A stretch of 64,000 nucleotides of DNA from Maribacter zhoushanensis (GTDB lineage: Bacteria; Bacteroidota; Bacteroidia; Flavobacteriales; Flavobacteriaceae), in the NCBI RefSeq assembly GCF_029350975.1, contig NZ_JARKMR010000003.1, positions 291,908-355,907 on the forward strand, given 5' to 3'. Both the position numbers and the translations under genes were made by a program. The notes beneath the pieces are model-generated. The model saw only the letters and a list, made by a program, of their open reading frames with translations. It searched no databases and was not told the origin of the DNA. Shown here piece after piece: positions 6,580-59,987 of this stretch (the stretch's first letter is position 1; the number at the start of each line of letters is the position of its first letter).

Positions 6580-6580
6580 A

Positions 6581-6626
6581 AATCACCAAACCATTCCCCT
6601 TCTTTTGGAGGGGGCTAGGGGGAGGA
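6581..6626. repeat. Dispersed GC-rich hairpin element, copy 2
   Basis: This shares the 16-base start AATCACCAAACCATTC with the copy at 4101-4146. It carries an imperfect hairpin, CCCCTTC (6597-6603) with GGAGGGG (6607-6613), and the tail CTAGGGGGAGGA. It fills the 61-bp gap between permeases 1 and 2 and ends 14 bp before the start codon. Confidence 0.75.
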
Positions 6627-6640
6627 AAAAAACGAGAATC

Positions 6641-8989: not shown

Positions 8990-8995
8990 TGGCTT

Positions 8996-9034
8996 TGTAA
9001 ATATATTGGACATAATCTGTCTAAATATTTGACA
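8996..9034. promoter_or_regulatory. Tandem palindromic operator pair, copy 2
   Basis: TGTAAATATATTGGACA (8996-9012) and TGTCTAAATATTTGACA (9018-9034) start 22 bp apart, matching the spacing at 324 and 14116. The pair begins 7 bp after the stop of permease 2 and lies 53 bp before the TGGCAT element at 9088. Confidence 0.75.
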
Positions 9035-9087
9035 TTTAGTATTTTGTGTATTTACATAAATAACTGAAAATCAATATTTTATATTTT

Positions 9088-9105
9088 TGGCATAGAAATA
9101 GAATT
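9088..9105 (+). promoter_or_regulatory. Sigma-54-like promoter of the permease 3-4 unit
   Basis: TGGCATAGAAATAGAATT has a -24-like TGGCAT and a TAGA in the -12 position. The upstream bases AACTGAAAATCAATA resemble AACTGTAAATCAATA before promoter 1 (near 401-415), so the whole region looks duplicated. The start codon at 9142 is 36 bp downstream. This is the weakest of the three matches to the sigma-54 consensus. Confidence 0.5.
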
Positions 9106-9141
9106 TGATATTCCGTAATCAAGCATCAAAAAACGAGAACC

Positions 9142-11574: not shown

Positions 11575-11610
11575 GTAAAGCATCAAACTTCATCAATCAA
11601 AAAGAACATC

Positions 11611-14040: not shown

Positions 14041-14115
14041 TTTTTGAAATGTATGGTCAAAACTTGGTTTTGCATTGATGACAATGGTGTAACATTCTAA
14101 TTTTTAAGTAGTCAT

Positions 14116-14154
14116 TGTAAATATATTGTACATCTTTTGTCAAAATATTTTACA
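14116..14154. promoter_or_regulatory. Tandem palindromic operator pair, copy 3
   Basis: TGTAAATATATTGTACA (14116-14132) and TGTCAAAATATTTTACA (14138-14154) start 22 bp apart. The first palindrome differs from its counterpart at 8996 by one base. A TGGCACG element follows 52 bp downstream. Confidence 0.78.
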
Positions 14155-14206
14155 CACGAAAATGTACTTTCATTTTAAGTAATTGATAATTAGATATTTA
14201 CTATAG

Positions 14207-14224
14207 TGGCACGGAATTAGTTTC
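14207..14224 (+). promoter_or_regulatory. Sigma-54-like promoter of the permease 5-8/ATPase 2 unit
   Basis: TGGCACGGAATTAGTTTC has a perfect -24 TGGCACG and TAGT at the -12 position, as in promoter 1. The leader to the start codon at 14291 is unusually long for this set (66 bp after the element) and contains repeated ATCAATCA-type stretches. Confidence 0.6.
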
Positions 14225-14290
14225 ATATTTTATATCATCAATCAATCAATGTTTAGCATCAACTAATCAACAATCAAAAAACGAACGATC

Positions 14291-16690: not shown

Positions 16691-16699
16691 TTTTAAAAA

Positions 16700-19084: not shown

Positions 19085-19116
19085 TTTAAAATTCATCAAT
19101 CAATCAAAATAAAATC

Positions 19117-21534: not shown

Positions 21535-21549
21535 TCAATAGCAGAAACT

Positions 21550-24003
21550 ATGTTACGAAATTACATCAAGATTGCTTTTAGAAACATTTGGAAGAACAAG
21601 GTGTTTTCTTTGATTAATATATTGGGGCTTTCCATTGGTTTAAGTGCTTCATTCGTAATTGGTGCAATGGTTTTTTACGACCTTACTTTTGATAAATTTC
21701 ATCCTGATGGTGATAGAATTTATAGAGTAACATCTTCGTTTCAAGGTACGTCGGGTGTGTTTTATAATTCGGGAGTAACGGTTCCTTTGGCACAAGAGTT
21801 AAAAGATTTGAGAATTGAAGAGATTGAAACGGTCGCTCCATTCTTTACTACGTATCCCTCACATGTAGAAAATCAACAAACGGGAAATAAATTCAAAGAC
21901 CCTGATTTTGTGATTTATACAGAACCTTCATATTTTAAAATATTTGAATATGATTGGTTGGCGGGCAATTCACATAGTGCTTTGGTAGAGCCAAATATGG
22001 TGGTATTGACTAAAGAACGAGCCATAAAATATTTTCCAAATCAAGAACCAAGAAACGTTGTAGGAAAGTTGCTTGTATATAATGATAGTATACATGCTAC
22101 TGTTTCGGGTGTAGTTGCTGGTTTTGATGGCCGTACCGATATTGTTTTTGAAGAATTTATTTCTTTGAAAACAGCGGCTACGCAAGATATGACCAATGCA
22201 ATAAATGAATCAGGTTGGGACAATACAAATTCTGCCTCTCAATTATTTCTTAAGCTAACGGAAAATGCTACTGCTAGTAATATTCAAAAAACGCTGACAA
22301 ATATTGCAGAAATACATGATGAATCAGAAGATTCGCATACAGGTGCTAGTAAAACTAAGTTCATGTTACAGTCTTTAAGCGATATTCATCTAAACCCTAA
22401 TTATGGAACCTTTGATTTCAATGATAGCCGAACAACTATGGAAGCGCTGAAAAGCCTTCTTTTGCTAGCATTCATTCTATTAATATTAGGCTGTATTAAC
22501 TTCATTAATTTAAATACGGCTCAAGCAATAAAAAGAGCTAAAGAAATTGGGATAAGAAAAACCTTAGGAAGTTCTAGATTGCAATTGGTTTATCAATATT
22601 TAGGGGAAACATTTCTATTGACCTTATCAGCAGCAGTAGTATCTATTTTTCTATCGAAATGGTTGCTACTTTTGTTTTCAGATTTTGTTCCTGCCGGATT
22701 AAGTTTTGACATTTTTTTAAATCCATGGGTATTGCTAGGGGTTTTTCTATTGCTTTGTTTGGTTACTATTTTATCTGGTTTTTATCCAGCGATAGTATTA
22801 TCGAAATATAAACCTGTTGCCGTTTTAAAACAACAAATTACTCCTAGTTCAGATAAAGGTCTATTAAGAAAGTATTTGACCGTATTTCAATTTGTAATTG
22901 CACAAATTTTTATCATAGCCACATTAATGGTAGGAAAACAGTTGAACTATATCATGAAAAAGGATATGGGTTTCAATACAGAAGCAATTGCATATTTTAA
23001 AACTCCGTGGCAAGATACATCTGCAGTCAAACGAACAAGGTTTGTAAAAAGAATACAAGATTTACCAGGTATACCAAATACGGTCTTAGCAGGTAATCCT
23101 CCAGCTTCATTTACTACTATGACCATGGGTGTGAAGTTTATAAAAGATAGCACAGAAGTAAATTCATATTTACAACTTATGTATGGCACTGCTAATTATT
23201 TTGATTTATATAATTTAAAACTATTGGCTGGTAGAATTCCTTTAAATGATTCTATTAGGGAATATGTGGTAAATAAATCCTATTTGAAAGAAGTAGGTAT
23301 AGAAAATCCAGCAGAAATAGTTGGTAAGAATTTAAAAGTAGATGATGAAAACCTACCTATTGTTGGGGTGATGGAAGATTTTAATCAGCATTCGCTAAAA
23401 TATGGAGTATCTCCTATGGCATTTACTGGAAGTTCATATACAGGCAAGTGGACACAATTTAAAACAATTCATTTTAAGTTGAATCCAAGTGAAGTTTCTA
23501 GTTGGTCCGCAACTTTATCTGAAGTAGAAAGTATATGGAAAGATACCTATCCGGATTCTGATTTTAAATATGCTTTTATGGATGATACTGTAAAACGATT
23601 TTATGAAAGCGAACAAAAGACATCGACATTATTACAATGGGCAACGGGATTGGCAATTTTAATCAGTTGTTTGGGATTATTTGGTTTGGTTATTAATACC
23701 ACGGAACGTAGAACAAAAGAGATAGGTATTCGCAAAATACTAGGAGCCAATATTTTTCAACTTAATATACTTTTGTCCAAAGACTTTTTAAAACTGGTAT
23801 TGATCGCTTTTGTTATTGCTACGCCAATTGCATGGTATGGATTACATAGTTGGTTGGAGGAATTTGCCAACAAAACCGAATTGAGCTGGTGGGTTTTTGC
23901 TTTAAGCGGTATTCTTATGGTGGTAATATCATTATTGATTATGACAATTAAAACTCTGAATTCAGCGAATACCAATCCCATAAAAAGCCTGAGAACGGAA
24001 TAA
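21550..24003 (+). CDS. FtsX/MacB-type ABC permease 8 of 8
   Basis: 817 aa, the longest of the set, start LRNYIKIAFRNIWKNK. It keeps the domain-end motif LSDIHLNPNYG. Coupling helices are KEIGIRKTLGS and KEIGIRKILGA; the C-terminus is NPIKSLRTE. Base composition is slightly more AT-rich to the eye than the first permeases. ATPase 2 follows after 66 bp that contain a degenerate repeat (24013-24068), so the two are probably cotranscribed. Confidence 0.92.
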   Translation: MLRNYIKIAFRNIWKNKVFSLINILGLSIGLSASFVIGAMVFYDLTFDKFHPDGDRIYRVTSSFQGTSGVFYNSGVTVPLAQELKDLRIEEIETVAPFFTTYPSHVENQQTGNKFKDPDFVIYTEPSYFKIFEYDWLAGNSHSALVEPNMVVLTKERAIKYFPNQEPRNVVGKLLVYNDSIHATVSGVVAGFDGRTDIVFEEFISLKTAATQDMTNAINESGWDNTNSASQLFLKLTENATASNIQKTLTNIAEIHDESEDSHTGASKTKFMLQSLSDIHLNPNYGTFDFNDSRTTMEALKSLLLLAFILLILGCINFINLNTAQAIKRAKEIGIRKTLGSSRLQLVYQYLGETFLLTLSAAVVSIFLSKWLLLLFSDFVPAGLSFDIFLNPWVLLGVFLLLCLVTILSGFYPAIVLSKYKPVAVLKQQITPSSDKGLLRKYLTVFQFVIAQIFIIATLMVGKQLNYIMKKDMGFNTEAIAYFKTPWQDTSAVKRTRFVKRIQDLPGIPNTVLAGNPPASFTTMTMGVKFIKDSTEVNSYLQLMYGTANYFDLYNLKLLAGRIPLNDSIREYVVNKSYLKEVGIENPAEIVGKNLKVDDENLPIVGVMEDFNQHSLKYGVSPMAFTGSSYTGKWTQFKTIHFKLNPSEVSSWSATLSEVESIWKDTYPDSDFKYAFMDDTVKRFYESEQKTSTLLQWATGLAILISCLGLFGLVINTTERRTKEIGIRKILGANIFQLNILLSKDFLKLVLIAFVIATPIAWYGLHSWLEEFANKTELSWWVFALSGILMVVISLLIMTIKTLNSANTNPIKSLRTE

Positions 24004-42637: not shown

Positions 42638-45010
42638 ATGGGAAAGCACGAAAGAAAGATAATGCCGGTAAAGCACCTCATTAGTTTTGAAAAACTTCTA
42701 CAGAAGTATGATGAACATTTAAAGGGTGATGATCCTTTTTTGGCGGCTACCGCTGAGCGTATTTTATCTATTGAGAAGGGTTTTCCTGAACTACGAGATG
42801 GTTTTTCAGATTTTACATTATTAGAGAAGAACAAAGATCTTATAAATAAAATTCTACAAGATACATTTACAGAAGCTTTAAGTGGTAATGAGATAAAGGT
42901 AGCAACCTTGCCTTATCAAGATATGATCATAAAGTCTTCTAATCGTTTTCAAAAAATAATTGAAGAGGCTGGTAAAGACTATGAGCCAGAGTTAAGAAAT
43001 GTAAGCGATGATATGGATTATATCATGAGCTGCGTAGTGGTCTTGAATTATTATTATGGTTATCATATAGATTTTAGCCGTCCCTATTTTTATGATATTC
43101 CAGATGCCAATGGGGTAATGCGTCATTACCGTATTTTGTACAATGCAGATTTTATTGATGTTATACCTACGGAGAGAGCAAAAGAAATTACGCAAAAAGA
43201 TGTAGATGAGCTTTTGGCTAGTCCAAACGACATTAAACTGTGGATGGAGAAAATACCGCCAGAAAGTTTTATATCTAAAGGTTTTGTAATTGCCAATCTG
43301 TTCGATGTTACCATGGAGCAAGCGATTTCAAATATTAAGACAAAATTAATTTCTAAGGATACCATACAGCCTACAAACTTCATGCATGATCTGCAGGAAA
43401 CTTTCAAGTCGTTCTTTAGATTGCCAAATATTAAAGTGGGTTTTGCTTCTTTTGATGCTAAAAAAGATGAATTTGAAGAGGTTGCAGGTATGGGGTTTGA
43501 TAGCTTTCTGCTAGGTGGGTTGCACCATATGGATTGTAAAAGTGCATTGTGTGCAGATTCTTATGATAAGCTCATAGATCACAATTCATACTTTACAATC
43601 ACAGATATGGACAGTAAGGTAGAGCAGTCAGGTAATATGAATCCTTATAAAGGGCTTAAAGAGCAAGGCATACAAAGTGCCATTTTTGCTCCTATAGCTT
43701 ATGAGAATAACCTTTTAGGGGTTTTAGAAATCGTTTCTAAAAAGAAGGGAGTGCTTAATGGAGTAAATGCCCAAAAGTTAGATGACGTATTACCGTTTAT
43801 AGTATCTGCCGTTGTACGTGCCAATGTTGAAGAGACCAATAGAATAGATGCTATAATTCAGAACGAGTGTACTTCTGTTCATTCATCGGTTTACTGGAAA
43901 TTTCAAGAAGAGGCAAAAAAGTTTATGATTGATGAGGCAGAGGGGAAATCTCCATCGTTTAAAGAAATTGTTTTTAAAGATGTGTATCCGTTATTCGGTC
44001 AAATTGACATAAAAGATTCTTCCCAAGCTAGAAATTTAGCCATTCAGCGCGATTTAATGATTCAGCTTTCTGAGATAGACAATGTGCTTAACATAGCACA
44101 AAAGAAGTGGAATTTGCCAATTTATGAAGAGCTGATCTTTAGGGTGAACAATCATTTAGAGAGTATAAAGGAAATGCTTTATACGAATAGTGAACAGGCT
44201 ATATTTGATTTTGTACATGAAGAAATATTCCCTGTTTTTGAGCATCTTAAAAAGTCTGACAAAGAAATAGAGAAGCATATATTAAAATATGAGTCTAAGA
44301 TAGATATGGGTACGGGCTCTTATTACGATCATAGAAAGAACTATGACGAGAGCGTAACATTAATCAATAAAAAGCTTTCTTCGGTAATTGATAAAAGACA
44401 AGAAAGTGCACAGGCAATGTTTCCTCACTTTTACGAGCGTTACAAAACAGACGGCGTAGAGCATAACATGTATATTGGTTCTTCAATTTCTGAAAACAAA
44501 GAATACAATTCACTATATCTTAATAATTTAAGGTTGTGGCAATTACAGGTAATGTGTGAAATGGAAAATGCACATTATGCTTTAAAGCCAAAATTACCGG
44601 TACCGTTAGATGCAGCCTCTTTAATATTGGTATATAACACATCGTTATCTATTCGATTTAGAATGGATGAAAAACAATTTGATGTAGATGGCACGTACAA
44701 TGCCCGTTATGAAGTTATTAAAAAAAGAATTGATAAATCTTATATAAAGGGCACCGATAAAAGGTTAACTCAGAAAGGTGTGCTGTCTATTGTGTATTCA
44801 CAAAAGAAAGATGAATTGGAGTATTTAAGATATATCAAGTTCTTAAGGTCTAAAGGTTGCTTTACCAACAAAATAGAAATTGTAGAGTTAGAGGGGTTAC
44901 AAGGTGTTTCTGGCTTAAAGGCTATACGTGCAGAGATTCTTTATAAAAGAGAGCAAGAACCTGAAAAGACATATACCTACCAGGATCTTATGGATGCCTT
45001 AAAAGAATAA
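42638..45010 (+). CDS. GAF-domain protein of unknown function
   Basis: 790 aa, cytoplasmic, no membrane segments. The central region about 250-405 (KVGFASFDAKKDEFEEVAG ... SAIFAPIAYENNLLGVLEIVSKKKGVL) has the strand order of a GAF sensor domain. The parts before (about 1-240) and after (about 410-790) are mostly helical and match nothing I recognise. No kinase, GGDEF, EAL or HTH output is visible, so the partner for any sensed signal is unknown. Another in-frame ATG lies at 42662. The 3' end overlaps by 12 bp the convergent HD/PycTM-like gene. Confidence 0.8.
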   Translation: MGKHERKIMPVKHLISFEKLLQKYDEHLKGDDPFLAATAERILSIEKGFPELRDGFSDFTLLEKNKDLINKILQDTFTEALSGNEIKVATLPYQDMIIKSSNRFQKIIEEAGKDYEPELRNVSDDMDYIMSCVVVLNYYYGYHIDFSRPYFYDIPDANGVMRHYRILYNADFIDVIPTERAKEITQKDVDELLASPNDIKLWMEKIPPESFISKGFVIANLFDVTMEQAISNIKTKLISKDTIQPTNFMHDLQETFKSFFRLPNIKVGFASFDAKKDEFEEVAGMGFDSFLLGGLHHMDCKSALCADSYDKLIDHNSYFTITDMDSKVEQSGNMNPYKGLKEQGIQSAIFAPIAYENNLLGVLEIVSKKKGVLNGVNAQKLDDVLPFIVSAVVRANVEETNRIDAIIQNECTSVHSSVYWKFQEEAKKFMIDEAEGKSPSFKEIVFKDVYPLFGQIDIKDSSQARNLAIQRDLMIQLSEIDNVLNIAQKKWNLPIYEELIFRVNNHLESIKEMLYTNSEQAIFDFVHEEIFPVFEHLKKSDKEIEKHILKYESKIDMGTGSYYDHRKNYDESVTLINKKLSSVIDKRQESAQAMFPHFYERYKTDGVEHNMYIGSSISENKEYNSLYLNNLRLWQLQVMCEMENAHYALKPKLPVPLDAASLILVYNTSLSIRFRMDEKQFDVDGTYNARYEVIKKRIDKSYIKGTDKRLTQKGVLSIVYSQKKDELEYLRYIKFLRSKGCFTNKIEIVELEGLQGVSGLKAIRAEILYKREQEPEKTYTYQDLMDALKE

Positions 45011-46216
45011 CACCTGGCTCAATAATTCTATTTTTCGGTCTGGACCAAAGAATTTAAACGAAACGGCAAATGCTATTACGGAAAGGATCATACCGATCAT
45101 GAAAATGGTATAGGTCCAACGCAGTAATGAATACTTTCTGTTCAGTACAATACCAAGAAAATAAAGATCTTTGGTTAAAGATGTATAGATGTAATCTTTG
45201 TCCTTTAGCATTTCTTGAATAGCCCATTCATACTCACTTAAAGCCATTTTGTGAAAGTTGCCAAAAAATAAGAGGTTTACATTTTTGTTGGCTACATCTT
45301 CTTTGGTAAACTCGCCACTGGTAACGTTAGGTCTGGTTGCCAATACTGCCAATACCATAGAAACTACGCTAAAGAATACGAAAATTACAGTTGGGTAAAT
45401 TAAATAATCGTTAGACGGGTTGTCTAATTTAGGGATAAGGTTAGATAGGGCTAATGATATGATAATGGCATTTACAGAAAGTAAAATGTTTGCTTTTGTG
45501 TCTGCAATATCACTTAGGGTTATATGGTTTTTAAGGGTAACTCGGTATAAGGTCTGTATACCACGATCCGGACTTTCGCTTTTGAACTGTGCTTTTAGTT
45601 TTTCTTTTTTAGCAAGTTTCTTTTCGGACTTTTTGTCTTTTATCAGCTTTCTTAAATTTTTGTCTTTTTTAGGTAGCCAATTCTCTTTAGCATAATCTGT
45701 ATAATACTGGTGGTCTGTTCTAAAAACTTGAATATTCAGTTCTAACCAATCTTTTTGGTTGTAGTTTTTTAAACCGAGCAGTTTAAGTTCTTCACGTAAA
45801 AGATCGGAGGTTTCAAGATAGCTGCTTTGTGCAAAATGAGAAGAATCTGCATCGCGTATAATCTCGTCCATTAAATTGGTTGGCTGTGCATTCCATTTGG
45901 TGGCTAGTATGCAAGATTTCACCTTCTTTATTTTTTCTTTGTCATAACCTTCTTTTGTCAAAAAATTCTCTGAAATGTCACAGCTACTTTCTTCGTGATT
46001 GGCGGTGCCCTTTGTGTAGCCGGTATCATGTAACCAGGCAACTAATACAAGAAGTTCCTTATCCTGATCGGATAGAGAACATGATTCCAGTAATTGTTTA
46101 GTACTTTTAACGACTCTTTGGGTATGTCTTAGATTATGGTATAAAAACTTCTTATCCAGATGATTGGTAAGTAAGTCAGTTACAAACTGTTGTGTATTAT
46201 CTAAGATTTTTGACAT
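44999..46216 (-). CDS. HD-domain phosphohydrolase fused to a PycTM-like membrane module
   Basis: 405 aa. The N-terminal half (about 15-180) is an HD domain with all five metal/catalytic positions: His27 or His31 in YHNLRHTQRV, His63-Asp64 in WLHDTGY, His74 in NHEES and Asp122 in IIRDADSS. A Lys-rich linker (about 183-212) follows. The C-terminal half has DTKANILLSVNAIIISLAL (about 239-257), a second membrane segment (about 273-294), VLATRPNV and a third (about 367-390). This matches the DUF5706/PycTM family, whose stand-alone members are effectors of the Pycsar antiphage system. No nucleotide cyclase is adjacent. A role in nucleotide-linked stress signalling is inference. Confidence 0.8.
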   Translation of the reverse strand: MSKILDNTQQFVTDLLTNHLDKKFLYHNLRHTQRVVKSTKQLLESCSLSDQDKELLVLVAWLHDTGYTKGTANHEESSCDISENFLTKEGYDKEKIKKVKSCILATKWNAQPTNLMDEIIRDADSSHFAQSSYLETSDLLREELKLLGLKNYNQKDWLELNIQVFRTDHQYYTDYAKENWLPKKDKNLRKLIKDKKSEKKLAKKEKLKAQFKSESPDRGIQTLYRVTLKNHITLSDIADTKANILLSVNAIIISLALSNLIPKLDNPSNDYLIYPTVIFVFFSVVSMVLAVLATRPNVTSGEFTKEDVANKNVNLLFFGNFHKMALSEYEWAIQEMLKDKDYIYTSLTKDLYFLGIVLNRKYSLLRWTYTIFMIGMILSVIAFAVSFKFFGPDRKIELLSQVLFF

Positions 46217-46273
46217 GGAAAAATTGGTTTCAAATACCCAAATTACAAAATTTTAAAGATGGGCAACGTTACT

Positions 46274-49200
46274 ATGAAAAAATTATATGCATATCTGTCG
46301 GTTTTTATATTCATTACTAGCTGTGCTACGTATAATACAAAGTATGTAGATGAAAAATATGGTATAGATGTAAATGATGAAAAAGAGATATCACATACCT
46401 TTTATTTAATTGGAGATGCTGGTTTATCTCCTATGGGAGGAATGAATCCTGCTCTGAAAATTTTTAAGAATAGATTAGACAAGGCAGATGAGAATAGCAC
46501 GGCCATTTTTTTAGGCGATAATATTTATCCTGCCGGTTTGCCTGACCCAAAAGATTCTACCGATGCCTATAGAACAGCTAAGAATCATTTAGATGCCCAG
46601 GTCAATACATTAAATAATTTTAAAGGAAGACCTCTTTTTATACCAGGAAATCACGATTGGTATACAGAAGGTTTAGTAGGTCTTGAAAGAGAAGAAAATT
46701 ATATAAAGAAAGCACTTAAGAAAAAAGAAAAAGATCCATTTTTACCAGAGAACGGCTGCCCTATAGATGTTGTGGAAATAGGTGATGATGTTGCTGTTAT
46801 AACTATTGATACAGAATGGTATTTGACAAATTGGGACAAACGCCCAGATATTAATGATAAGTGTGATATTAAAAGTAGGGCAAAGTTTTTCTTAGAACTT
46901 GAAGATGCTATAAAAGATTACCGCGACCGTACAACGGTTATTGCAATGCATCACCCTAGTAATAGTTATGGTGAGCATGGTGGGCAATATTCGATAAAAA
47001 AACATTTGTATCCTAAGAAAATGGCGGTGCCATTACCTGTACTAGGTTCGTTCATTAATATACTTAGAAATACTTCTGGTGCATCTGTAGAAGATGTAAA
47101 CAATAAGCGTTATCGAGAATTAATGAATAGGGTAACTACATTGGCACAATATTCTGATCGCGTAATTTTTGCATCTGGGCATGAACATACATTACAATAT
47201 TTTGTAGAAAATAATACTCCGCAAATTGTTAGCGGTTCTGGTGCAAAAGAAGGTTTTACACGTTTGCTCAACGGTTCTCAATTCAATACCGGTAAAATGG
47301 GATATGCTACTTTAGAAGTATATAAAGATGGTTCTTCTAGAGTTCGTTTTTATGGTGTAGGAGATGATGAAAACGAAGAGTTTTTATTTACTAATGAAGT
47401 TCTGCCATCAACTCAAAAAAAATATATTGGTGAATTTTCCAATGAATTTCCTGATAGTGTAAAGGCATCTGTTTATACAAAGGGCGAAATTGATAAAAGC
47501 GGATTTTATAAAGGAATATGGGGTGACCGCTACCGAAAGTATTATGGTACCGAGGTGACCGTACCAACCGTAAATATAGATTCTCTTTTTGGTGGTTTGG
47601 TACCAGTTAAAAAAGGAGGTGGTCATCAATCTAAATCATTACGTTTGCGAGCAAAAGATGGAAGGGAATTTGTGATGAGGGCTTTAAGGAAAAGCGCGGA
47701 ATTGTATTTGCAGTCCATGGCTTTTCAAGATCAGTATGTGCTAGATGATTTAAAAGAAACATATACACAAGAGATATTACAAGACTTTTATACGGGATCA
47801 CACCCCTATGGGCCGTTTACAACAGCAAAATTATCTGATGCAGTAGGTATTTATCATACCAACCCGGTTTTATATTACGTGCCTAAACAGCCAGCTTTAA
47901 AAGAGTATAACGAAACCTTTGGTGATGAACTGTATATGATTGAAGAGCATACTGGCGATGGTCATGGAGATTTAGCAAGTTTTGGGTATTCTAATAATTT
48001 AACGAGTACAGATGGTATGCTAGAGGACCTTCGTGATGATGAAAAGTACGAAGTGGATAAAGCCCTCTATTTAAGAGCACGACTTTTTGATATGGTTTTG
48101 GGCGATTGGGATCGTCATGTAGATCAGTGGCGTTGGGCAGAATTTAAAGACGAGAAGAAGGGCAAGATCATTTATAGACCTATACCTAGGGATCGTGATC
48201 AAGTGTTCTCTAAAATGGGTGATGGCGCGTTAATGAAAATAGCTACCCGTATTATACCAGGGTTAAGATTAATGGAAGGCTTTAATGAAGATATTAGAAG
48301 TGTAAAAGGCTTTAATTCATCACCAATGACCTATGTACTTGATTTGACATTATTGGGCGAAACAGAAAAAAGTCAATGGTTAGAGCAAGCTAGATATTTA
48401 CAAGAAAATCTAAAGCCTAGTGATATAGATGAGGCATTTAAATCTTTTCCAGAAGAAGTGCGTGATGAAACGGTAGATGAAATTAAAAAGGTTCTATTGG
48501 CGAGATTGAGCCATATCGAAGAAACAGCAAATGAGTATTATAGAATATTAAATAAATATGCTGTAGTTGCAGGAACGGATAAAGATGATTGGTTTGAGAT
48601 TAATAGGCTAAATGATGAAGAGACTGAAGTAAAAGTATTTAGAAATATAGGTGATAAGAAAAAACGACTATTCTATTATAAAGTTTTTATTAAAGAAGAT
48701 ACTAAAGAATTGTGGGTTTTTGGATTAGATGATGATGATATTTTTGAGATTAAAAATCCGTCTCACTATTCTGGTGTAAAGGTTCGTATAATCGGTGGTC
48801 ACAATAATGATATCTATAGGGTAGAAGATGGTAGAAACGTTGCTTTATATGACTTTAAAAGTAAGAAGAACACATTTGAAGAAACAGGTGGTGCAAAAGT
48901 AAAATTGTCAGATGATTATGAGCTAAACACCTATCAGCCGCTAAAGTTGAGAAATAGTTTCAACCAGATTATACCCACCATAGGATTTAATCCAGATGAT
49001 GGTGTTAGAATAGGTTTTGTAAATACATATACATATAACGGTTTTAGGCAAAACCCCTTTACCCAACAGCACACTTTTGCAGCATCTTATTATTTTGCTA
49101 CAAGTGGTTTCGATTTTAAATATCAAGGAGAATTTGCCCACATATTTGAGAATTGGAATGCAGAACTTTCTGCTAGATTTACGAGTCCTAATTTTGCAAT

Positions 49201-49996
49201 CAACTTTTTTGGTTTTGGTAACAATACCGAAAATTTCGATGATGATTTAGGTTTGGATTATAACAGGGTTAAATTACGGCAGATAGATTTTTTTCCTTCA
49301 TTAATTTGGAGAGGACAATTGGGAGCCAAGGTAAAGTTAGGACTGTCATATGAAAATATCAGTGTTGAAGAAACGAATGACAGATTTATAAATACCTTTT
49401 ACCAACAGAACGGAGAAGAAACCAATAGTGATTTTGTAGGGGCTCATGCTGCATATAATTATGAAAACAGGGATAATGAAGCTTTCCCAACCTTGGGTAT
49501 GGGAACGTCATTAGAAGCTGGGTTTAAAGAAAATCTCTCTAAAGAAGGCGGTAGTTTTGGTTACATTATACCAAGTCTAAGTTTTGATTATAAACTGATC
49601 CCCAATGGTAGGTTAGTATTGGCGACGAAATGGAAAGCGCATTTTAATATTGGTGATGAATATGAGTTTTACCAAGCTGCCAGCATTGGCGGTTTAGATG
49701 GTCTTCGTGGATTTAGAAATCAACGTTTTACAGGTAAAACATCTTACTATCAAAATACTGATATTAGATTTAGCTTAAAAAAGAAGAGAACTAGATTATT
49801 GCCAACGGCAATGGGTCTCTTTGGCGGATTTGATTATGGTAGGGTATGGATGCCGGAAATGAATTCTGGTCGCTGGCACACTTCTTATGGTGGCGGATTC
49901 TTTTTAAATGCCTCGGATATTATCTCTGTAAATACTGCAATATTTGCGAGTGAAGACGGAGCAAGATTTACTTTTGGGTTAGGTTTTGGCTTCTAA
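46274..49996 (+). CDS. Phosphoesterase / kinase-like / Omp85-barrel lipoprotein
   Basis: 1240 aa from the ATG at 46274; an in-frame ATG at 46259 would put five polar residues before the leader. The leader MKKLYAYLSVFIFITSC ends in a lipobox. Three parts follow. (1) Calcineurin-like phosphoesterase, about 40-320: Asp48 in IGDAG, Asp82 in LGDNIYP, GNHDW at 125-129, MHHPSNSYGEHGG and SGHEHT. (2) A central domain, about 440-840, with the DWDRHVDQWRW motif (Asp611-His615 at its start) and PIPRDRDQVF (Asp640, Asp642). These resemble the catalytic DRH and metal-binding Asp of HipA/PI3-4K/Fam20-type kinases, but with Asp-Gln where Asn is expected. (3) An Omp85-like barrel, about 900-1240, with the LRGFR motif and a C-terminal Phe. 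Domain 2 is my own reading. Confidence 0.82.
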   Translation: MKKLYAYLSVFIFITSCATYNTKYVDEKYGIDVNDEKEISHTFYLIGDAGLSPMGGMNPALKIFKNRLDKADENSTAIFLGDNIYPAGLPDPKDSTDAYRTAKNHLDAQVNTLNNFKGRPLFIPGNHDWYTEGLVGLEREENYIKKALKKKEKDPFLPENGCPIDVVEIGDDVAVITIDTEWYLTNWDKRPDINDKCDIKSRAKFFLELEDAIKDYRDRTTVIAMHHPSNSYGEHGGQYSIKKHLYPKKMAVPLPVLGSFINILRNTSGASVEDVNNKRYRELMNRVTTLAQYSDRVIFASGHEHTLQYFVENNTPQIVSGSGAKEGFTRLLNGSQFNTGKMGYATLEVYKDGSSRVRFYGVGDDENEEFLFTNEVLPSTQKKYIGEFSNEFPDSVKASVYTKGEIDKSGFYKGIWGDRYRKYYGTEVTVPTVNIDSLFGGLVPVKKGGGHQSKSLRLRAKDGREFVMRALRKSAELYLQSMAFQDQYVLDDLKETYTQEILQDFYTGSHPYGPFTTAKLSDAVGIYHTNPVLYYVPKQPALKEYNETFGDELYMIEEHTGDGHGDLASFGYSNNLTSTDGMLEDLRDDEKYEVDKALYLRARLFDMVLGDWDRHVDQWRWAEFKDEKKGKIIYRPIPRDRDQVFSKMGDGALMKIATRIIPGLRLMEGFNEDIRSVKGFNSSPMTYVLDLTLLGETEKSQWLEQARYLQENLKPSDIDEAFKSFPEEVRDETVDEIKKVLLARLSHIEETANEYYRILNKYAVVAGTDKDDWFEINRLNDEETEVKVFRNIGDKKKRLFYYKVFIKEDTKELWVFGLDDDDIFEIKNPSHYSGVKVRIIGGHNNDIYRVEDGRNVALYDFKSKKNTFEETGGAKVKLSDDYELNTYQPLKLRNSFNQIIPTIGFNPDDGVRIGFVNTYTYNGFRQNPFTQQHTFAASYYFATSGFDFKYQGEFAHIFENWNAELSARFTSPNFAINFFGFGNNTENFDDDLGLDYNRVKLRQIDFFPSLIWRGQLGAKVKLGLSYENISVEETNDRFINTFYQQNGEETNSDFVGAHAAYNYENRDNEAFPTLGMGTSLEAGFKENLSKEGGSFGYIIPSLSFDYKLIPNGRLVLATKWKAHFNIGDEYEFYQAASIGGLDGLRGFRNQRFTGKTSYYQNTDIRFSLKKKRTRLLPTAMGLFGGFDYGRVWMPEMNSGRWHTSYGGGFFLNASDIISVNTAIFASEDGARFTFGLGFGF

Positions 49997-53113: not shown

Positions 53114-56100
53114 CTAAGGTTTGAGTATGCTATACACTTCTGCAGCCTTATTGTTAAAGGTGAGTAAAATGTATTTTTTGTTGTTTGCGTTTAAAATATT
53201 CATGCTTCGAATAGATTTACCTGTAAGATCCAGTCCTATTTCATTGGCTAAGGTAACATTGTTGGTGCTACTAATCAATGCCCCGGGAAAAGAATCAAAA
53301 CGACCGTGGTATGGTTTTACGCCAAAATAATTTCCTGCAGCCAAAACTTCGGTTTTAGTATCTCCGTTAAAATCAAATTCTAAGAATGCCATTATTGGTG
53401 CCAATTGTAGTTCATAGCTAAATGGTATAAAAGAAAACTTACCGCCATTGTTTTGTAAGTAACCAGAGCTTAAAGTATGTACTTCAAGAACTTCAGCATT
53501 TGGTAGCATATCTTCTCCTAATATTTCTTCCATTGATTTTCCTGCGAAAGAACTATAAGTATTGAATTTTTTGCGAAGAGCTACTAACTGGCTAGATAAT
53601 TCTTTTAAACCGTCTACGGGATAATCTTTACCATCTTTATAAGTGCTGACAATAGTTTCTGTAGCTCCGTTTTTATCAAGGTCGCCATAAAACATTTTCA
53701 TGGGGTGATCTTGCGTAGCGGTAAATTTAGTATTTAGCCCCCAGTTACCTAAAAGGTAGTCTTGGTCACCATCACCATCAATATCAAAACTGGTAATTGC
53801 TTGCCATAAACCGTTCGTGTTTTTATTTTCTAAGGGATGTATTTCTTCAAATGTTCCTTTAGAATTTTGAAAGAATCTTGGTGACATCCATTCACCAACA
53901 AATAGAATATCTTCCCAACCATCATTATTAAAATCTGTTACAATGGCATCGGTAACCATTCCTAAGTTCTCGAACGGACTTGTTGCTACTTTGAAATCAC
54001 CATTTTCGTTATTTAAAAGATAGCTGTTGGGTTTGTTTCCATAATCTGCACTAATAGATTGGTTACAGATAATGATATCTAAGTCGTTATCATGATCATA
54101 ATCTAATTTCAAAAGAACAGATGTATTCTCGAATAGGTCTGGAAATTCATTTTTGGTGAAAACAGAATCATTTGAAACGTAATAAGAATTGATGAGCGGC
54201 TTCATTTCATTGAAAAAATCTGCGCCACCAGTACCTACTATAAGATCATTTTTACCGTCTAAATTAAAGTCACCAAGAATAGAGGCAATGTCTTCCTTGA
54301 TACTGTCTTTTTTGATTTCTTGATAATTTTTTGAATAAAATGTAGAATCGCCTTGAACGTATATTTGTGACGGAATATATTTAGCTCCACCAAAGAATAT
54401 GTCGTCTTTTCCATCACCGTTTAAATCTCCAATACTTACCGCAGGACCTCTATCGGACATTTGATAAGGAATCAGTTTTTGACGTAAATAATCACTGTAA
54501 GCATCTTCCAAATGAACATAGTCTATGCCCAGGTTGTTTGAAGCTTTTTCAAACAACACATTTTCTTTCTGTTTAAGTGAGTTATAATTAAAAGGCTGAG
54601 TGTTTTCAGGATTTAGATATAGTGTTTGATTGACAGCAATGTTTTTAACCAACTGAATGTTTTTGTCTGGCCAAATAATTTTAAGGGAATCAATATTTTC
54701 AAGTTCTCCATACCCAAAATGTATAATCGGTTCAGAAGATGCTTGAAATCCGCGAACGGTGTACATTTCTTTAAACTGTTGAATTCCGTTGGCGTATGAG
54801 AATATTTTAGTACCAATCCCGAATGTATTATTCTTGGTATAGTTCAGTTTAATTTTTAGCCAATTACGTTGACTGTTCGTGGTATTTTCTTGAATTCCTG
54901 CTTTGCTGTATAAATTGTTGGTTATTAAATCTAAATCGCCATCATTATCTAAATCACTATAGGCGGTTGCTCCAGAAATAATGGTGTCTTGTGCAATCCA
55001 ATTTTTAGATTCATCAATAAACTGAAGGTCTTTAGCTCCTTTAAAAATCATATTGCCAACAAAACCAGAAGGCATCATTTTAAGGGCTTTCTGGTCTACA
55101 AGATTGGTGTTATTGATTTTAGACCGAATGTTCTCGTTAGATATATAGTTGATGTAATCTAGGTCGTTAGGACGCTTTGGTATACCGTTGCTAATGTATA
55201 AATCTTGTTCGCCATCTTGGTTGAAATCACCAAATAAGGCGCTCCAGCTCCAATCTGTAGCCGCTACTCCGCTCTGTAAAGCTGTTTCTAAAAACTTGCC
55301 ATTTGGCTGGTTTACAGATAGCATATTTCTAGTATATTGATTGTGATAACCAAAAGACTTGGTCTTCATTTTTTGAATTTGGACGTCGTCATCACCTTCA
55401 GAAGATTTTAAGACGATTTCGTCTTTGCTCAACATATCCAAAGAAATTAAATCTGGTAATCCATCGTGGTTAATATCTGCAACATCACTACCCATAGAAA
55501 AACGTGTAGTATGTCCAAATGCTTCCTTAAGACTTTCTTTAAAAGTACCATCGCCATTATTTATATAATAATAATCATCTTCATGAAAGTCATTACCAAT
55601 ATAAAGATCAGGATATCCGTCTTGATTAAAGTCTGAAACGGCAATACCTAAACCGTAGCCATTGACACCGCCATAAATACCGGCATCTTCACTAACATCT
55701 ACAAATTTACCATTGTCATTTCGTAATAATTTATCGCCCGTTTCATAAATACGGTTGTGTCTTATTTGAGCATTTCCATAAGAATCTTGTGTATGAATGG
55801 CATGGTTTAGAAGATACATATCTAAATCTCCGTCCAAATCATAATCTAAGAAAGCTGCTGATGAGCTGTAAGATTCGAAATCTAAACCGTAATCCGCGGC
55901 ACTTTCCTTAAATGTTGCATCGCCTTGGTTTATAAAAAGCTCATTGTATCCATTAAATCCATTTAGACCAACAACAGCACACACGTAAATATCTAGAAGT
56001 CCGTCACCATTTACATCGCCCATGATCGTACCCGTATTCCAGGAGCTGTCGCCAGCGACACCTGCTGTTTCTGTAATATCCTCAAACTGTAAATTACCTT

Positions 56101-56365
56101 TGTTTAAGTATAATTTATTTTTCACTTGATTTCCTGAAAAATAAATGTCGGGTAAACTATCGTTATTGATGTCGCCAATGGCAACACCGCCACCATTATA
56201 AAAATATAGGTAGTCTAAAATACTTAGGTCTTTGGTTTCGGTTAAAGTATTTTCAAAAGCGATACCTGTATCATTAGCATTGTGTTTTACAAATAACTCT
56301 CCTGAATTCTGTTTGCAACCAATGGCAAATACCAATACACATATGTACAGTAAATTATTCTTCAT
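53114..56365 (-). CDS. VCBS/FG-GAP repeat lipoprotein with ASPIC/UnbV domain (copy 2)
   Basis: 1083 aa. The leader ends at the lipobox FAIGC. Calcium-binding FG-GAP/VCBS blades recur through the chain, each with a DxNxDGxxD-type loop (for example GDINNDSLPDIYF, GDVNGDGLLDIYV, SDFNQDGYPDLYI and GDLNGDGKDDIFF). They form two propellers separated by an ASPIC/UnbV domain at about 530-620 (TVRGFQASSEPIIHFGYG then LKIIWPD). This is the CRTAC1-like layout. Such proteins are probably exposed on the outer membrane; the ligand is unknown. It shares architecture throughout with the gene upstream, whose end it overlaps by 11 bp, so the two look like an old tandem duplication. Confidence 0.9.
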   Translation of the reverse strand: MKNNLLYICVLVFAIGCKQNSGELFVKHNANDTGIAFENTLTETKDLSILDYLYFYNGGGVAIGDINNDSLPDIYFSGNQVKNKLYLNKGNLQFEDITETAGVAGDSSWNTGTIMGDVNGDGLLDIYVCAVVGLNGFNGYNELFINQGDATFKESAADYGLDFESYSSSAAFLDYDLDGDLDMYLLNHAIHTQDSYGNAQIRHNRIYETGDKLLRNDNGKFVDVSEDAGIYGGVNGYGLGIAVSDFNQDGYPDLYIGNDFHEDDYYYINNGDGTFKESLKEAFGHTTRFSMGSDVADINHDGLPDLISLDMLSKDEIVLKSSEGDDDVQIQKMKTKSFGYHNQYTRNMLSVNQPNGKFLETALQSGVAATDWSWSALFGDFNQDGEQDLYISNGIPKRPNDLDYINYISNENIRSKINNTNLVDQKALKMMPSGFVGNMIFKGAKDLQFIDESKNWIAQDTIISGATAYSDLDNDGDLDLITNNLYSKAGIQENTTNSQRNWLKIKLNYTKNNTFGIGTKIFSYANGIQQFKEMYTVRGFQASSEPIIHFGYGELENIDSLKIIWPDKNIQLVKNIAVNQTLYLNPENTQPFNYNSLKQKENVLFEKASNNLGIDYVHLEDAYSDYLRQKLIPYQMSDRGPAVSIGDLNGDGKDDIFFGGAKYIPSQIYVQGDSTFYSKNYQEIKKDSIKEDIASILGDFNLDGKNDLIVGTGGADFFNEMKPLINSYYVSNDSVFTKNEFPDLFENTSVLLKLDYDHDNDLDIIICNQSISADYGNKPNSYLLNNENGDFKVATSPFENLGMVTDAIVTDFNNDGWEDILFVGEWMSPRFFQNSKGTFEEIHPLENKNTNGLWQAITSFDIDGDGDQDYLLGNWGLNTKFTATQDHPMKMFYGDLDKNGATETIVSTYKDGKDYPVDGLKELSSQLVALRKKFNTYSSFAGKSMEEILGEDMLPNAEVLEVHTLSSGYLQNNGGKFSFIPFSYELQLAPIMAFLEFDFNGDTKTEVLAAGNYFGVKPYHGRFDSFPGALISSTNNVTLANEIGLDLTGKSIRSMNILNANNKKYILLTFNNKAAEVYSILKP

Positions 56366-59300
56366 TTAATCGATACAATTTTGGAGTGTCATTGTTGATA
56401 GCTGCGATGATAAATTCATTTCCTTTTTTATCTTTTACTATTTGTAGTTGTTTTACTTCATTTCTTATGAAGAACCCGCTATCAGTATAGTTTTTCCATT
56501 CAAAATTCACCTTTCCATCACCAAGAAGAACGTTGCCGTAGTTGGCGTCTAATCGAGAATACTGAGGTTTAAATTCAAAATTATTACCTGCCATTACAAG
56601 GTCAAGATTACCGTCTTTGTTTACATCTAAACATTGAATACCGCAAATACAGGAAAATTGAACTTGAGGAGGTAAAATTTTAATAGTAAAATTGCCATTA
56701 CCATTATTTATGGCAATTACGGTTTCAGCAATACTAGCTTCTTTTAGAATGGTGTTGTCAATAACATTTTTTGAAAATAACTCTTGAATTGTTTTTGAAG
56801 CGTATTCAGAAGCTTTAATGTTCTTTTTCTTAAGTGCTAATATTTGAGTAGTTAATTCCTTTTTTTGATGAAGAGGATAATCGCCGCCATCATAATTTTG
56901 TGTGGTTATTTGTTCAATGGTTCCATCATTATCAAAATCATTTACCCACATTTTCATAGGTTGCCCAGGTGCAGGTTTGTAATGAATGTTACTGCCCGTA
57001 TTACCTAAAATTAAATCTTGGTCTCCGTCGTTATCCAAATCATAACCTTCTACGGCACCCCACCAACCACTAAGGCTGTCAAGAGAGCTTTTAGAATCGC
57101 TAAGTCTTCTGCCAGAGTTTTTATAAATTTTTGGGCTACCCCAATCAGAAACGGTTACTAGGTCATCTTTACCGTCACCATCCATATCTAGCCATTTGGC
57201 ATCGGTAATCATCCCTGCATCTTTTAGGTCGTATGCAGAGCGTTCGGTAATATCTGTAAAAGTACCATCACCGTTATTTAAGAGAAATAAATGATCAGGG
57301 TTTATACCGTATGTACCAACTACACTTCTTGATCCTACAAAAACATCAATATCACCGTCACTATCAAAATCTGAAGGAGCGACAACGGCTACATTTTTGT
57401 TGATATTTGGTAGTTTGTTTGTACTTAAAGAAAAGTTGCCATTTCCATCGTTCAGATATAGTCGAATGCCATAACTGCCTTGCAAACCTAATTCATTACC
57501 CCCCGTACCGACCATAAGGTCTAAATCACCATCATTATCCGAATCAAAAAAGGAAGCAGTGGTGTCTTCTAATGGTGCTTCGGTTTTAAAATATTTTACA
57601 ATAGGTTTAGAAAGTGAACCGTTGCCCTTGTGAAGATATAATGCACCAGTTTGATTTTTTGCGCCACCAATGAAAATATCATCATTTCCATCTCCATTTA
57701 CATCACCAACTGCTAAGCCGGGACCTTCTTCTGCCAATGATTTAGAAATCAATCCTTCATTATCAAAGTCCATATAGTTGTTTTCTTTATGGGTCAAGAA
57801 AGTATTGTTATCTATAGATTTTAAAAGAGTAGGAGTTTCCGTTTTATTAATCTTAAATACTTCGCTAGCTTCTTCTTGATTAAATGTAATGGTCTGGTTA
57901 GCTTTTACATTGGTTAGCTTAGCAGTAGCGCCATTAGGCCATATAATACGAATGGAGTCTAATGTTGTTGTAGCTCCAAGACCTATGGTCATAGGATATT
58001 CAACCGAAGATTGAAAACCTCTTGAAGGCATTAAAGTCTGGTCGATAATATTATCTGGGTAGTATAAACGAGCAACCGTTCCAATACCGAACTTATTGCC
58101 GTCATTACCTTTAAATTTTAATTTGATATAGTTGTTTTCTGATTGCGAATCAGAATTGTTGCGATACACAAACGTCTCCATATTTACGTTGTTGACCACT
58201 AAATCTAAGTCGCCATCATTATCTAAATCACCGTAAGCAGAACCGTTTGAACGGCTAGGTATTTCAAAACCCCACTGTTTATTGTAGTTGCTGAATGTGA
58301 TATCTCCGTTGTTTCTATATGCGTAGTTAGGTAAAGGTGTAACTGGCATTTTGTTAATGATAGAATCAATAGATTCTTTTCTGCCGGTCAAAGCCATTTT
58401 TTGAATGATTTCGTTGGCAAAGAAATCAACGAAATCTAAATCTGTAAGATCATGATTAATTCCATTAGTGATATAAATATCTTTTAATCCGTCATTGTCC
58501 ATATCGAATAAAAGTCCAGACCAGCTCCAATCTGTAGCTTCTACGCCACTATAATAAGCGATTTCTGAAAAAGAGCCATTTCCATTGTTCAGCTGTAATG
58601 TGTTTTGAATGTATTGCTGGTGGAAATCTTTGCTCTGTTTTAATTTAAAAATATTGTAGCCTTCAAATTCCATTACAGATTTTACACGCTGATCTGGTTC
58701 AGGGAGCATATCGGTAATGAAAATATCTGTAAGTCCGTCATTATTTATATCTGCCATATCAACCCCCATGGCAGATAAACTCAAGTGGTTTGTCCATTTT
58801 TGAACCTCTTCTTTAAAGGTGCCGTCTTGATTGTTGATGTATAAATAATCTCTTTCATAAAAATCGTTAGAAACATAGATATCCGGGTACAGGTCATTAT
58901 TGATATCTACGACCATAACGCCAAGACCAAAGCCAATAAGACTGCCATAAATTCCTGCTTCTTCACTTACGTCAACGAATTTACCATTGTCGTTTCTCAG
59001 AAGCATATCGCCTACGCCTCTAAAAATTTTAGGTACACCCTCCCAATCTTGAGCTCTTACTTCTCGCTGCTCTGCATAACCAAGGCTACTAACGGGAATA
59101 TTACTGTTGTTTAATATGTAAGCATCCAGATCGCCGTCTTTGTCATAGTCAAAAAAAGAGGCATGGGTAGAAAAACCTGTTTCAGCTAAGTTGTATTCAT
59201 GTGCTTTTTCAGTAAAAGTACCGTCACCATCGTTAATGTACAGATCGTTATCATGGTTGTTGCCTTCCATGTTGCCGGCGTTACTTACGTAAATATCTAA

Positions 59301-59711
59301 AAATCCGTCATTATTGATATCCGCCATCACTACACCTGTAGACCATGGCTTATTTCCTTTTATACCGGCAGTTTCTGAAATGTCTTCAAATGTCATTTCG
59401 CCTTTATTAAGAAATAGCTTGTTAGGTTCCATGTTGCCGGTCAAGAAAACATCTGCTAATCCATCATTGTTGATGTCACCTATGGCAACACCGCCGCCGT
59501 TGTAGAAATTACGGTATTTAAAAATGTTGAATTCTTTAGAGTTGGCAACTTTATTTACAAATGAAATACCGGTTTCTTCTGGTTGTAAAAGAGTAAATAA
59601 GGTAGGTTCTGTTTTTTCTTTTAACGTATTTGCATCTTCCTTAGAACCGCAAGAATATAATAGGGATAAAAATAAACCAAGGCAGCTTAATTTAAGCAAA
59701 TTAAAGTTCAT
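56355..59711 (-). CDS. VCBS/FG-GAP repeat lipoprotein with ASPIC/UnbV domain (copy 1)
   Basis: 1118 aa from the ATG at 59711; the in-frame upstream start at 59735 would put eight extra residues before the leader. The leader MNFNLLKLSCLGLFLSLLYSC ends in a lipobox. The same two-propeller plan as copy 2 is seen, with repeated GDINNDGLADVFLTG, GDVNGDGNDDIFIGG and PSDFDSDGDIDVFVGS-type loops. The ASPIC/UnbV domain (MPSRGFQSSVEYPMTIGLG then SIRIIWPNG) lies near 540-625. It is the promoter-proximal gene of a five-gene operon running to 50,006. Its 276-bp upstream region, shared with the divergent symporter, shows no clear promoter. Confidence 0.9.
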   Translation of the reverse strand: MNFNLLKLSCLGLFLSLLYSCGSKEDANTLKEKTEPTLFTLLQPEETGISFVNKVANSKEFNIFKYRNFYNGGGVAIGDINNDGLADVFLTGNMEPNKLFLNKGEMTFEDISETAGIKGNKPWSTGVVMADINNDGFLDIYVSNAGNMEGNNHDNDLYINDGDGTFTEKAHEYNLAETGFSTHASFFDYDKDGDLDAYILNNSNIPVSSLGYAEQREVRAQDWEGVPKIFRGVGDMLLRNDNGKFVDVSEEAGIYGSLIGFGLGVMVVDINNDLYPDIYVSNDFYERDYLYINNQDGTFKEEVQKWTNHLSLSAMGVDMADINNDGLTDIFITDMLPEPDQRVKSVMEFEGYNIFKLKQSKDFHQQYIQNTLQLNNGNGSFSEIAYYSGVEATDWSWSGLLFDMDNDGLKDIYITNGINHDLTDLDFVDFFANEIIQKMALTGRKESIDSIINKMPVTPLPNYAYRNNGDITFSNYNKQWGFEIPSRSNGSAYGDLDNDGDLDLVVNNVNMETFVYRNNSDSQSENNYIKLKFKGNDGNKFGIGTVARLYYPDNIIDQTLMPSRGFQSSVEYPMTIGLGATTTLDSIRIIWPNGATAKLTNVKANQTITFNQEEASEVFKINKTETPTLLKSIDNNTFLTHKENNYMDFDNEGLISKSLAEEGPGLAVGDVNGDGNDDIFIGGAKNQTGALYLHKGNGSLSKPIVKYFKTEAPLEDTTASFFDSDNDGDLDLMVGTGGNELGLQGSYGIRLYLNDGNGNFSLSTNKLPNINKNVAVVAPSDFDSDGDIDVFVGSRSVVGTYGINPDHLFLLNNGDGTFTDITERSAYDLKDAGMITDAKWLDMDGDGKDDLVTVSDWGSPKIYKNSGRRLSDSKSSLDSLSGWWGAVEGYDLDNDGDQDLILGNTGSNIHYKPAPGQPMKMWVNDFDNDGTIEQITTQNYDGGDYPLHQKKELTTQILALKKKNIKASEYASKTIQELFSKNVIDNTILKEASIAETVIAINNGNGNFTIKILPPQVQFSCICGIQCLDVNKDGNLDLVMAGNNFEFKPQYSRLDANYGNVLLGDGKVNFEWKNYTDSGFFIRNEVKQLQIVKDKKGNEFIIAAINNDTPKLYRLNEE

Positions 59712-59987
59712 TGTTGAGTTTGTTAGAGATAGCACTTCTAGTTAATTTGTTAGCTATTAAAGTTGAGTTAATAACCTGTTTAATAGTTAGTTCAAAATTA
59801 ATTTGCAATATAGCCAAATACCTACTATTTGTTAGGCTTATTTGGTAAAAGTCAACGTTAAAATTTAATGAAATCGTTATAGGCGCGGTCTAATAATATG
59901 AATAATGAGATTTAGTGGCTACTTTTTAGAAGTAATGGAAATAATCCAATATATTTAACCTTGACTAAATAACAAACAACTCAACCA

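Follow-up and report, generated by a model that had tools for sequence, protein, structure and literature searches.

The closest described relatives of the protein analysed here form the 'Metallo' subfamily of Omp85 proteins, a class that Heinz and Lithgow defined in 2014 by a PF00149 domain, termed there a metalloprotease domain, and for which the parts of their survey that deal with it offer both a surface and a periplasmic location (PMC4104836). The description of the class in section 10 of that survey contains no middle domain, and the words 'kinase' and 'phosph' are absent from its main text. We analysed a 64,000-nucleotide stretch of the Maribacter zhoushanensis genome (contig NZ_JARKMR010000003.1, positions 291,908 to 355,907; hereafter the window), which encodes an outer-membrane lipoprotein that shares with the subfamily a PF00149 domain N-terminal to an Omp85-type barrel and the lack of POTRA domains but differs from the published description in a central domain of protein-kinase-like fold. 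An earlier note on the window had proposed exactly this layout, phosphoesterase, kinase-like centre and Omp85-type barrel in one chain, and the layout was borne out in a single open reading frame (ORF) of 1240 residues. The novelty that the note expected, if the layout was real, held in one part: the pairing of phosphatase and Omp85 barrel was published in 2014 (PMC4104836), whereas no paper on a kinase-like domain in phosphatase-Omp85 proteins was found among those listed by searches of the open-licence full-text literature. The analysis supports the central idea of the note in this form, as a new family of kinase-fold domains within a known outer-membrane architecture. The features of the gene, all on the plus strand, are as follows.

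46274..49996, +: coding sequence of the three-domain outer-membrane lipoprotein, 1240 residues plus stop, read from the ORF; the other possible start is the in-frame ATG at 46259
46274..46324, +: signal peptide and lipobox ITS-C17, from a simple lipobox pattern and direct reading
46394..47416, +: purple-acid-phosphatase-type phosphoesterase, residues 41-381, from PF00149, the structural match to human purple acid phosphatase 2bq8 and the ligand sites
GD48AG, GD82NIY85, GN126H127D, H226H227P and GH303EH305 (residue numbers), +: phosphatase ligand motifs, from site alignment
47555..48556, +: protein-kinase-like domain, residues 428-761, from AlphaFold, Foldseek and VIA-align 2; no Pfam family on residues 400-872 up to E 1
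47615..47641, +: Gly-rich loop GGGHQSKSL, residues 448-456, from conservation; between model strands E43-48 and E54-61
47666..47692, +: beta3 strand EFVMRALRK, residues 465-473, with Arg469 (in the slot of the kinase Lys) and Lys473, from conservation; model strand E66-74
48101..48136, +: catalytic loop GDWD613RHVDQ618WRW, residues 610-621, from the CotH and HipA profile alignments and conservation
48179..48208, +: predicted metal-binding motif PIPRD640RD642QVF, residues 636-645, from alignment with the CotH IPxDxD motif and conservation
48557..48907, +: all-beta linker domain, residues 762-878, with RTX-like GLDxDD and IGGxxxD segments, from secondary structure and alignment
48956..49993, +: Omp85-type beta-barrel, residues 895-1240, from NCBIfam Omp85_fam and Foldseek

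We modelled the centre with AlphaFold as residues 400-872, using an alignment of 72 sequences, and the resulting model (predicted local distance difference test, pLDDT, 85.9; predicted template modelling score, pTM, 0.88) showed a protein-kinase-like two-lobed fold. Its top Foldseek matches in the PDB were kinase-fold proteins, namely CtkA (E 1.5e-5), COQ8A, Rio2, HipA (E 1.9e-4) and type II phosphatidylinositol 4-kinase alpha (PI4KII-alpha, E 2.7e-4), with Fam20 (Golgi casein kinase) at rank 16 (E 1.2e-3). Alignment with VIA-align 2 gave Z-scores of 15.5 for PI4KII-beta, 15.1 for CotH, 13.4 for CtkA, 11.6 for HipA and 10.8 for Fam20. The 50 VIA matches listed (Z 15.5 to 10.4) span model residues 29-362, and going by their titles 49 of them are kinases or HipA-type proteins, the remaining one being LepB (4jw1), which the relevant part of one study counts among Legionella kinases (PMC9758233). 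The full-length model (residues 41-1240; pLDDT 73, pTM 0.68; AlphaFold) reproduced the fold, with a Z-score of 15.2 to PI4KII-beta. The unrelated fold that the earlier note had allowed for did not appear: residues 428-761 are predicted to be kinase-like in both models, and the central domain almost certainly has a kinase fold.

Comparison with the nearest members of that fold supports the assignment of the central domain to an undescribed family closest to CotH, type II phosphatidylinositol 4-kinases, HipA and Fam20. CotH (PF08757; 5jd9/5jda) superimposes on 249 residues with a root-mean-square deviation (rmsd) of 3.9, and its catalytic loop and IPxDxD motif align; the central domain nevertheless differs in that none of 80 members of its family reaches the PF08757 cut-off, in having Gln for Asn and in being fused to a phosphatase and a barrel. 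An ordinary CotH is also encoded in the genome of the window. Type II phosphatidylinositol 4-kinases, which are eukaryotic, intracellular lipid kinases, provide the best structural match (264 residues, rmsd 4.7) but are only 6-8% identical to the central domain. HipA, a cytoplasmic toxin-antitoxin kinase, and CtkA share the fold, and the active-site loop of HipA aligns, but among 80 members of the central-domain family one matches the NCBIfam HipA model (PRK09775), at E 0.061. Fam20C is likewise an extracytoplasmic kinase, and PF06702 is matched by one of the 80 members (E 0.0012); it is, however, an animal Golgi enzyme, and this best match among the 80 scores 19.0 bits, short of the 26.8 that the family requires.

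Searches by sequence alone left the domain unplaced. NCBIfam returned a sole match on residues 400-872, a methanethiol oxidase at residues 760-856, behind the kinase-like part, and the only kinase-named Pfam entry on the whole protein (Stk19, E 0.19) fell in the phosphatase. For PF08757, 1/80 members matched at E <1 (E 0.02; 14.8 bits, cut-off 23.8), and the further weak Pfam and NCBIfam matches among the 80 look like chance. HipA_C (PF07804) was absent from the window protein and, for the 80 members, from the matches listed, which cover 25 of 35 Pfam families. A phmmer search against the PDB did not place the domain. The Fam20C family itself was rejected as a candidate occupant of the phylum (0/198 genomes above the cut-off of 26.8 bits); the best match in these genomes (20.4 bits) belongs to a member of the central-domain family.

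To compare active sites by sequence, we aligned a profile of 80 central domains with two profiles built from sequences of the phylum, one of CotH (28 domains) and one of HipA (30 domains). Both hhalign alignments ran across the active-site loop, the one to CotH over 60 columns (E 2e-4, probability 47%) and the one to HipA over 125 (E 0.0019, probability 14%). Reversed queries gave E 0.51 and 0.20, the barrel gave E 0.7 and the phosphatase E 0.018, and 150 block-shuffled templates per family all scored lower than the real one, both for CotH (best 23.1 vs 38.4) and for HipA (22.9 vs 32.5). Because both profiles align D613 to the catalytic-loop Asp, D613 should be the catalytic residue, as judged from these alignments. 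The HipA pattern D-x-H-x-x-N lines up with D613-R-H615-V-D-Q618, so that Q618 takes the place of the loop Asn, and D640, the predicted metal Asp, aligns to the first Asp of the CotH IPxDxD motif. The loop Asp and Asn of Bacillus cereus CotH are 5 apart, the same as D613 and Q618; its two Asp are 23 apart, compared with 27 residues between D613 and D640. In B. subtilis CotH, mutants of D228 and D251, again 23 residues apart, are described as inactive in the part of the source that concerns them (PMC7821199). The catalytic-loop Asp and the metal Asp of the central domain thus stand in the order that marks a kinase fold. The motif positions given in the earlier note were accurate (DWDRHVDQW begins at residue 611 and PIPRDRDQVF at 636, with D640 and D642 as claimed), as was its remark that the loop Asn is replaced, the residue being Gln618. 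Its kinase-like reading of the layout held for the alignment of D613 and D640 with CotH and of D613 with HipA, and needed amendment in that the catalytic Asp would be D613, two residues past the start of its motif, and that the beta3 Lys is replaced as well, by Arg469.

Conservation was assessed in the same 80 central domains, less than 70% identical to each other and reduced from 167 after removal of matches spanning fewer than 250 query residues and of rows at least 70% identical to a kept row. The residues of the window protein recur in the Gly loop (G448 in 70, G449 in 71 and G450 in 68 of the 80), on beta3 (R469 in 70, K473 in 75, both together in 70), in the catalytic loop (D611 in 77, D613 in 73, R614 in 75, H615 in 69, Q618 in 73) and in the second motif (D640 in 71, D642 in 70), as well as at D504 (74), E557 (78) and G651 (80/80). 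Because the motif residues are found in 69-77 of the 80, while the median column over residues 428-761 holds the residue of the window protein in 35%, this conservation is not due to chance; among 334 columns ordered by conservation, 613-615, 618 and 640-642 lie between 14th and 34th place. Both motifs are therefore retained in most of these divergent homologues, and the lack of conservation that would have spoken against the earlier note was not seen. D613 and D640 are present together in 68/80. In the remaining 12, between 4 and 14 of 18 active-site columns are changed, with the Gly loop or R469 affected too in 11 of them, and the state of the Asp pair changed at least 6 times on a quick tree in which 28/77 inner branches are poorly supported. 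Four of the loci (L139, L140, L141 and L143) form a coherent, pseudokinase-like branch with Arg for D640 and Tyr for D642.

The phosphoesterase claimed in the earlier note was confirmed as a purple-acid-phosphatase-type domain. PF00149 matches residues 42-247 with 27.8 bits (cut-off 21.5), and the first 341 modelled residues align with human purple acid phosphatase 2bq8 at Z 27.0 (265 residues, rmsd 3.0, 22% identity) and with PhoD at Z 20.4. Besides the fold, the GDxG, GDxxY, GNH, H and GHxH motifs, which we take to be the ligand set of purple acid phosphatases, are all retained. The domain differs from those enzymes in being part of a bacterial outer-membrane lipoprotein, and its metals are predicted from the motifs. 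At least one of nine ligand sites is altered in 11/139 rows, four of which are fragments: L010 and L078 end at contig ends, and L014 and L015 are short extra ORFs. L071 is altered at one site and six rows are degenerate, among them a paralogue from the window's own genome (L151), with 7/9 sites changed or gapped. The three-part paralogues L151, L152 and L154 have 7, 4 and 7 of 9 phosphatase sites changed or gapped and retain the kinase-like Asp pair.

At the other end of the protein, the proposed Omp85-type barrel was recovered as an Omp85_fam match over residues 1051-1240 (E 1.5e-17, yet 64.2 bits vs a curated cut-off of 200) and as TamA/BamA in Foldseek. Beyond about residue 975 the model of the barrel is poor, and we make no claim on strand number or membrane placement. 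No Pfam POTRA match was found in the window protein up to E 10. The linker before the barrel has a weak library match (NCBIfam methanethiol oxidase, E 0.018-0.049), and its conserved RTX-like GLDxDD and IGGxxxD segments (48671-48823, +; residues about 800-850) may bind calcium. A simple lipobox pattern was found in 89/131 three-part ORFs and in 97 ORFs overall. In Bacteroidota, the surface-export signal of lipoproteins consists of acidic residues just after the lipid-bearing Cys, and the N terminus of Omp85 barrels lies on the periplasmic side. At least two acidic residues at +2 to +6 were found in 0/85 lipobox rows with full context, which does not support the description of the protein as a surface lipoprotein; a periplasm-facing one appears likelier.

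The architecture was surveyed by BLAST at 1e-4 in ORFs of at least 150 residues, with close relatives, short extra ORFs and locus-end fragments counted. The fetched loci contain 131 ORFs with three parts, 32 with centre and barrel, 7 with phosphatase only, 5 with centre only and 4 with barrel only; by computation, the central domain is an independent unit and the three folds are conserved. Two genomes (L129 and L145) encode central domain, phosphatase and barrel as three neighbouring genes on one strand. Their separate phosphatases (405 and 411 residues) score 28.9 and 35.0 bits to PF00149 (cut-off 21.5), and their separate barrels (400 and 402 residues) score 44.4 and 49.0 bits to Omp85 (cut-off 24); these phosphatases are too distant for the BLAST screen and were matched by a profile of the fused phosphatases. 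Because the parts are fused, and neighbours as separate genes in two genomes, they show signs of working together. When seven ligand sites were scored in the 80 members, those with an intact kinase Asp pair had an intact phosphatase in 41 cases, a degenerate one in 5 and none in 22, and those with a degenerate pair lacked the phosphatase in 11 cases and had a degenerate one in 1 and an intact one in 0. All members with an intact phosphatase thus keep the pair (41/41). We rejected the idea that a retained phosphatase forces retention of the kinase site: 41 to 0 is suggestive but not significant for independent pairs. In L119 and L144 the gene for central domain plus barrel is present in tandem copies, one L144 copy being degenerate at the active site.

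Our best explanation, on which we are evenly poised, is an outer-membrane lipoprotein with two opposing phosphate-handling domains, the centre most likely being phosphate-transferring. The N-terminal lipid and the C-terminal barrel would hold the protein in the outer membrane, the N-terminal domain would take phosphate off, and the central domain would most likely phosphorylate a protein or lipid of the envelope, D613 being the putative catalytic Asp, D640 and perhaps D642 binding metal, and R469/K473 replacing the usual Lys. We consider some enzymatic activity of the central domain rather probable; kinase activity in particular is a guess. The version in which an active kinase and its opposing phosphatase in one chain would control how far proteins or lipids of the envelope are phosphorylated in the Bacteroidota periplasm, through a cycle of making and removing that presupposes a phosphate donor and a substrate there, is tentative and less likely than not. 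If the domain is active, bacteria would have in it an enzyme for phosphorylating extracytoplasmic targets that shares its chain with the eraser; as an active kinase it would be an outer-membrane kinase without a similar example among the papers listed by searches of the open-licence full-text literature. It would also be a candidate writer for the phosphorylation of exported proteins in the phylum, such as that of gingipains, which are tyrosine-phosphorylated and whose kinase is called not yet identified in the part of a review that covers them (PMC10202324).

Several observations weigh against phosphate transfer by the central domain or leave it without a sequence anchor. The beta3 Lys is Arg469 in 70/80 homologues and Lys in 1/80 (the slot being assigned by strand position in the model, not by structural superposition), and the catalytic-loop Asn is Gln618 in 73/80 and Asn in 3/80. 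The profile probabilities are modest, with the unrelated phosphatase control as low as E 0.018, and a profile search of PDB sequences found no kinase, the best match (E 0.25) being a non-kinase. Tested along the tree, the states of the phosphatase and kinase sites show no significant association (sign test, median p 1), and the neighbourhood, conserved across 80 flavobacterial loci, points to no substrate. We know of no established availability of ATP in the periplasm. The two replaced slots suit a pseudokinase, whose non-catalytic fold would bind a nucleotide, lipid or partner to regulate the phosphatase or hold the barrel, and so do the 12/80 members without D613 and/or D640 that persist as ORFs of 699 to 1262 residues and the presence of Fam20A, which we take to be a pseudokinase, among the structural matches (VIA Z 10.8). 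Retention of both Asp in 68/80 and the rank of the motif columns go beyond the needs of a scaffold, however, and the domain with both Asp persists without a fused phosphatase in 22/80, which leaves the pseudokinase possible but doubtful. Even as a pseudokinase, the domain would add a new family of kinase fold to the outer membrane. That the kinase resemblance is an artefact of modelling or searching is very improbable: the lack of a Pfam family above threshold and of a PDB sequence match, together with low Foldseek TM-scores (template modelling; at most 0.54 among the matches listed), would fit it, but two separate models agree, all 50 VIA matches listed are kinases, and the CotH and HipA profiles, made without structure, converge on the same residues.

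The unusual active-site residues, and a lipid kinase, PI4KII, as top structural match, also fit an active kinase-fold enzyme with a different reaction, one that transfers AMP, as the kinase-fold protein SelO does, or phosphorylates polyols or lipids and is not a protein kinase. This is somewhat unlikely as a separate explanation, given that the protein kinases CotH, CtkA and Fam20 score about as well or somewhat lower and that the substrate is not deducible from the fold, and it overlaps with our best explanation, a lipid kinase falling under both. A further alternative concerns place and is compatible with the others, namely export of the N-terminal part through the barrel for display on the cell surface, as for the patatin of PlpD (type Vd), in which case the enzymes would act outside the cell. 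The missing POTRA match, the position of the barrel C-terminal to a large enzyme and the two locations offered for the Metallo class in the survey cited above agree with such display, but the lack of an acidic export-type signal and the periplasmic N terminus of Omp85 barrels make it unlikely.

The start at 46274 is preferred over the one that gives the longer version of the ORF (46259-49996, +; 1245 residues) because homologues share its MKK start. The closest named relatives of the protein are from Maribacter (93% identity in the best segment), and the family is common in the phylum: 137/296 sampled genomes have a match to the query with an E-value of at most 0.001, a count that includes genomes matching the phosphatase alone or the barrel alone. 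Residues 400-872 had no match in phages. Five plasmid records, from Hymenobacter, Persicobacter and Parabacteroides, match the protein, which is called hypothetical in 4/5 and has no annotation at the match in 1/5. A Riemerella metallophosphoesterase was not treated as the same protein; a review lists it, in the part concerned, as an effector of the type IX secretion system.

Minus-strand genes flank the lipoprotein gene on both sides. The divergent neighbour (44999-46216, -) encodes HD and PycTM ('Pycsar effector') domains and is found in 78/80 flavobacterial loci, inverted in L053, and an SdiA-regulated-like gene lies nearby in 77/80. Elsewhere in the window, 4162-24003 (+) holds consecutive ORFs of about 800 residues, of which the three scanned are MacB/FtsX-type ABC permeases, so that a tandem array of paralogues is likely, and 53114-59735 (-) holds two large adjoining FG-GAP/UnbV_ASPIC proteins.

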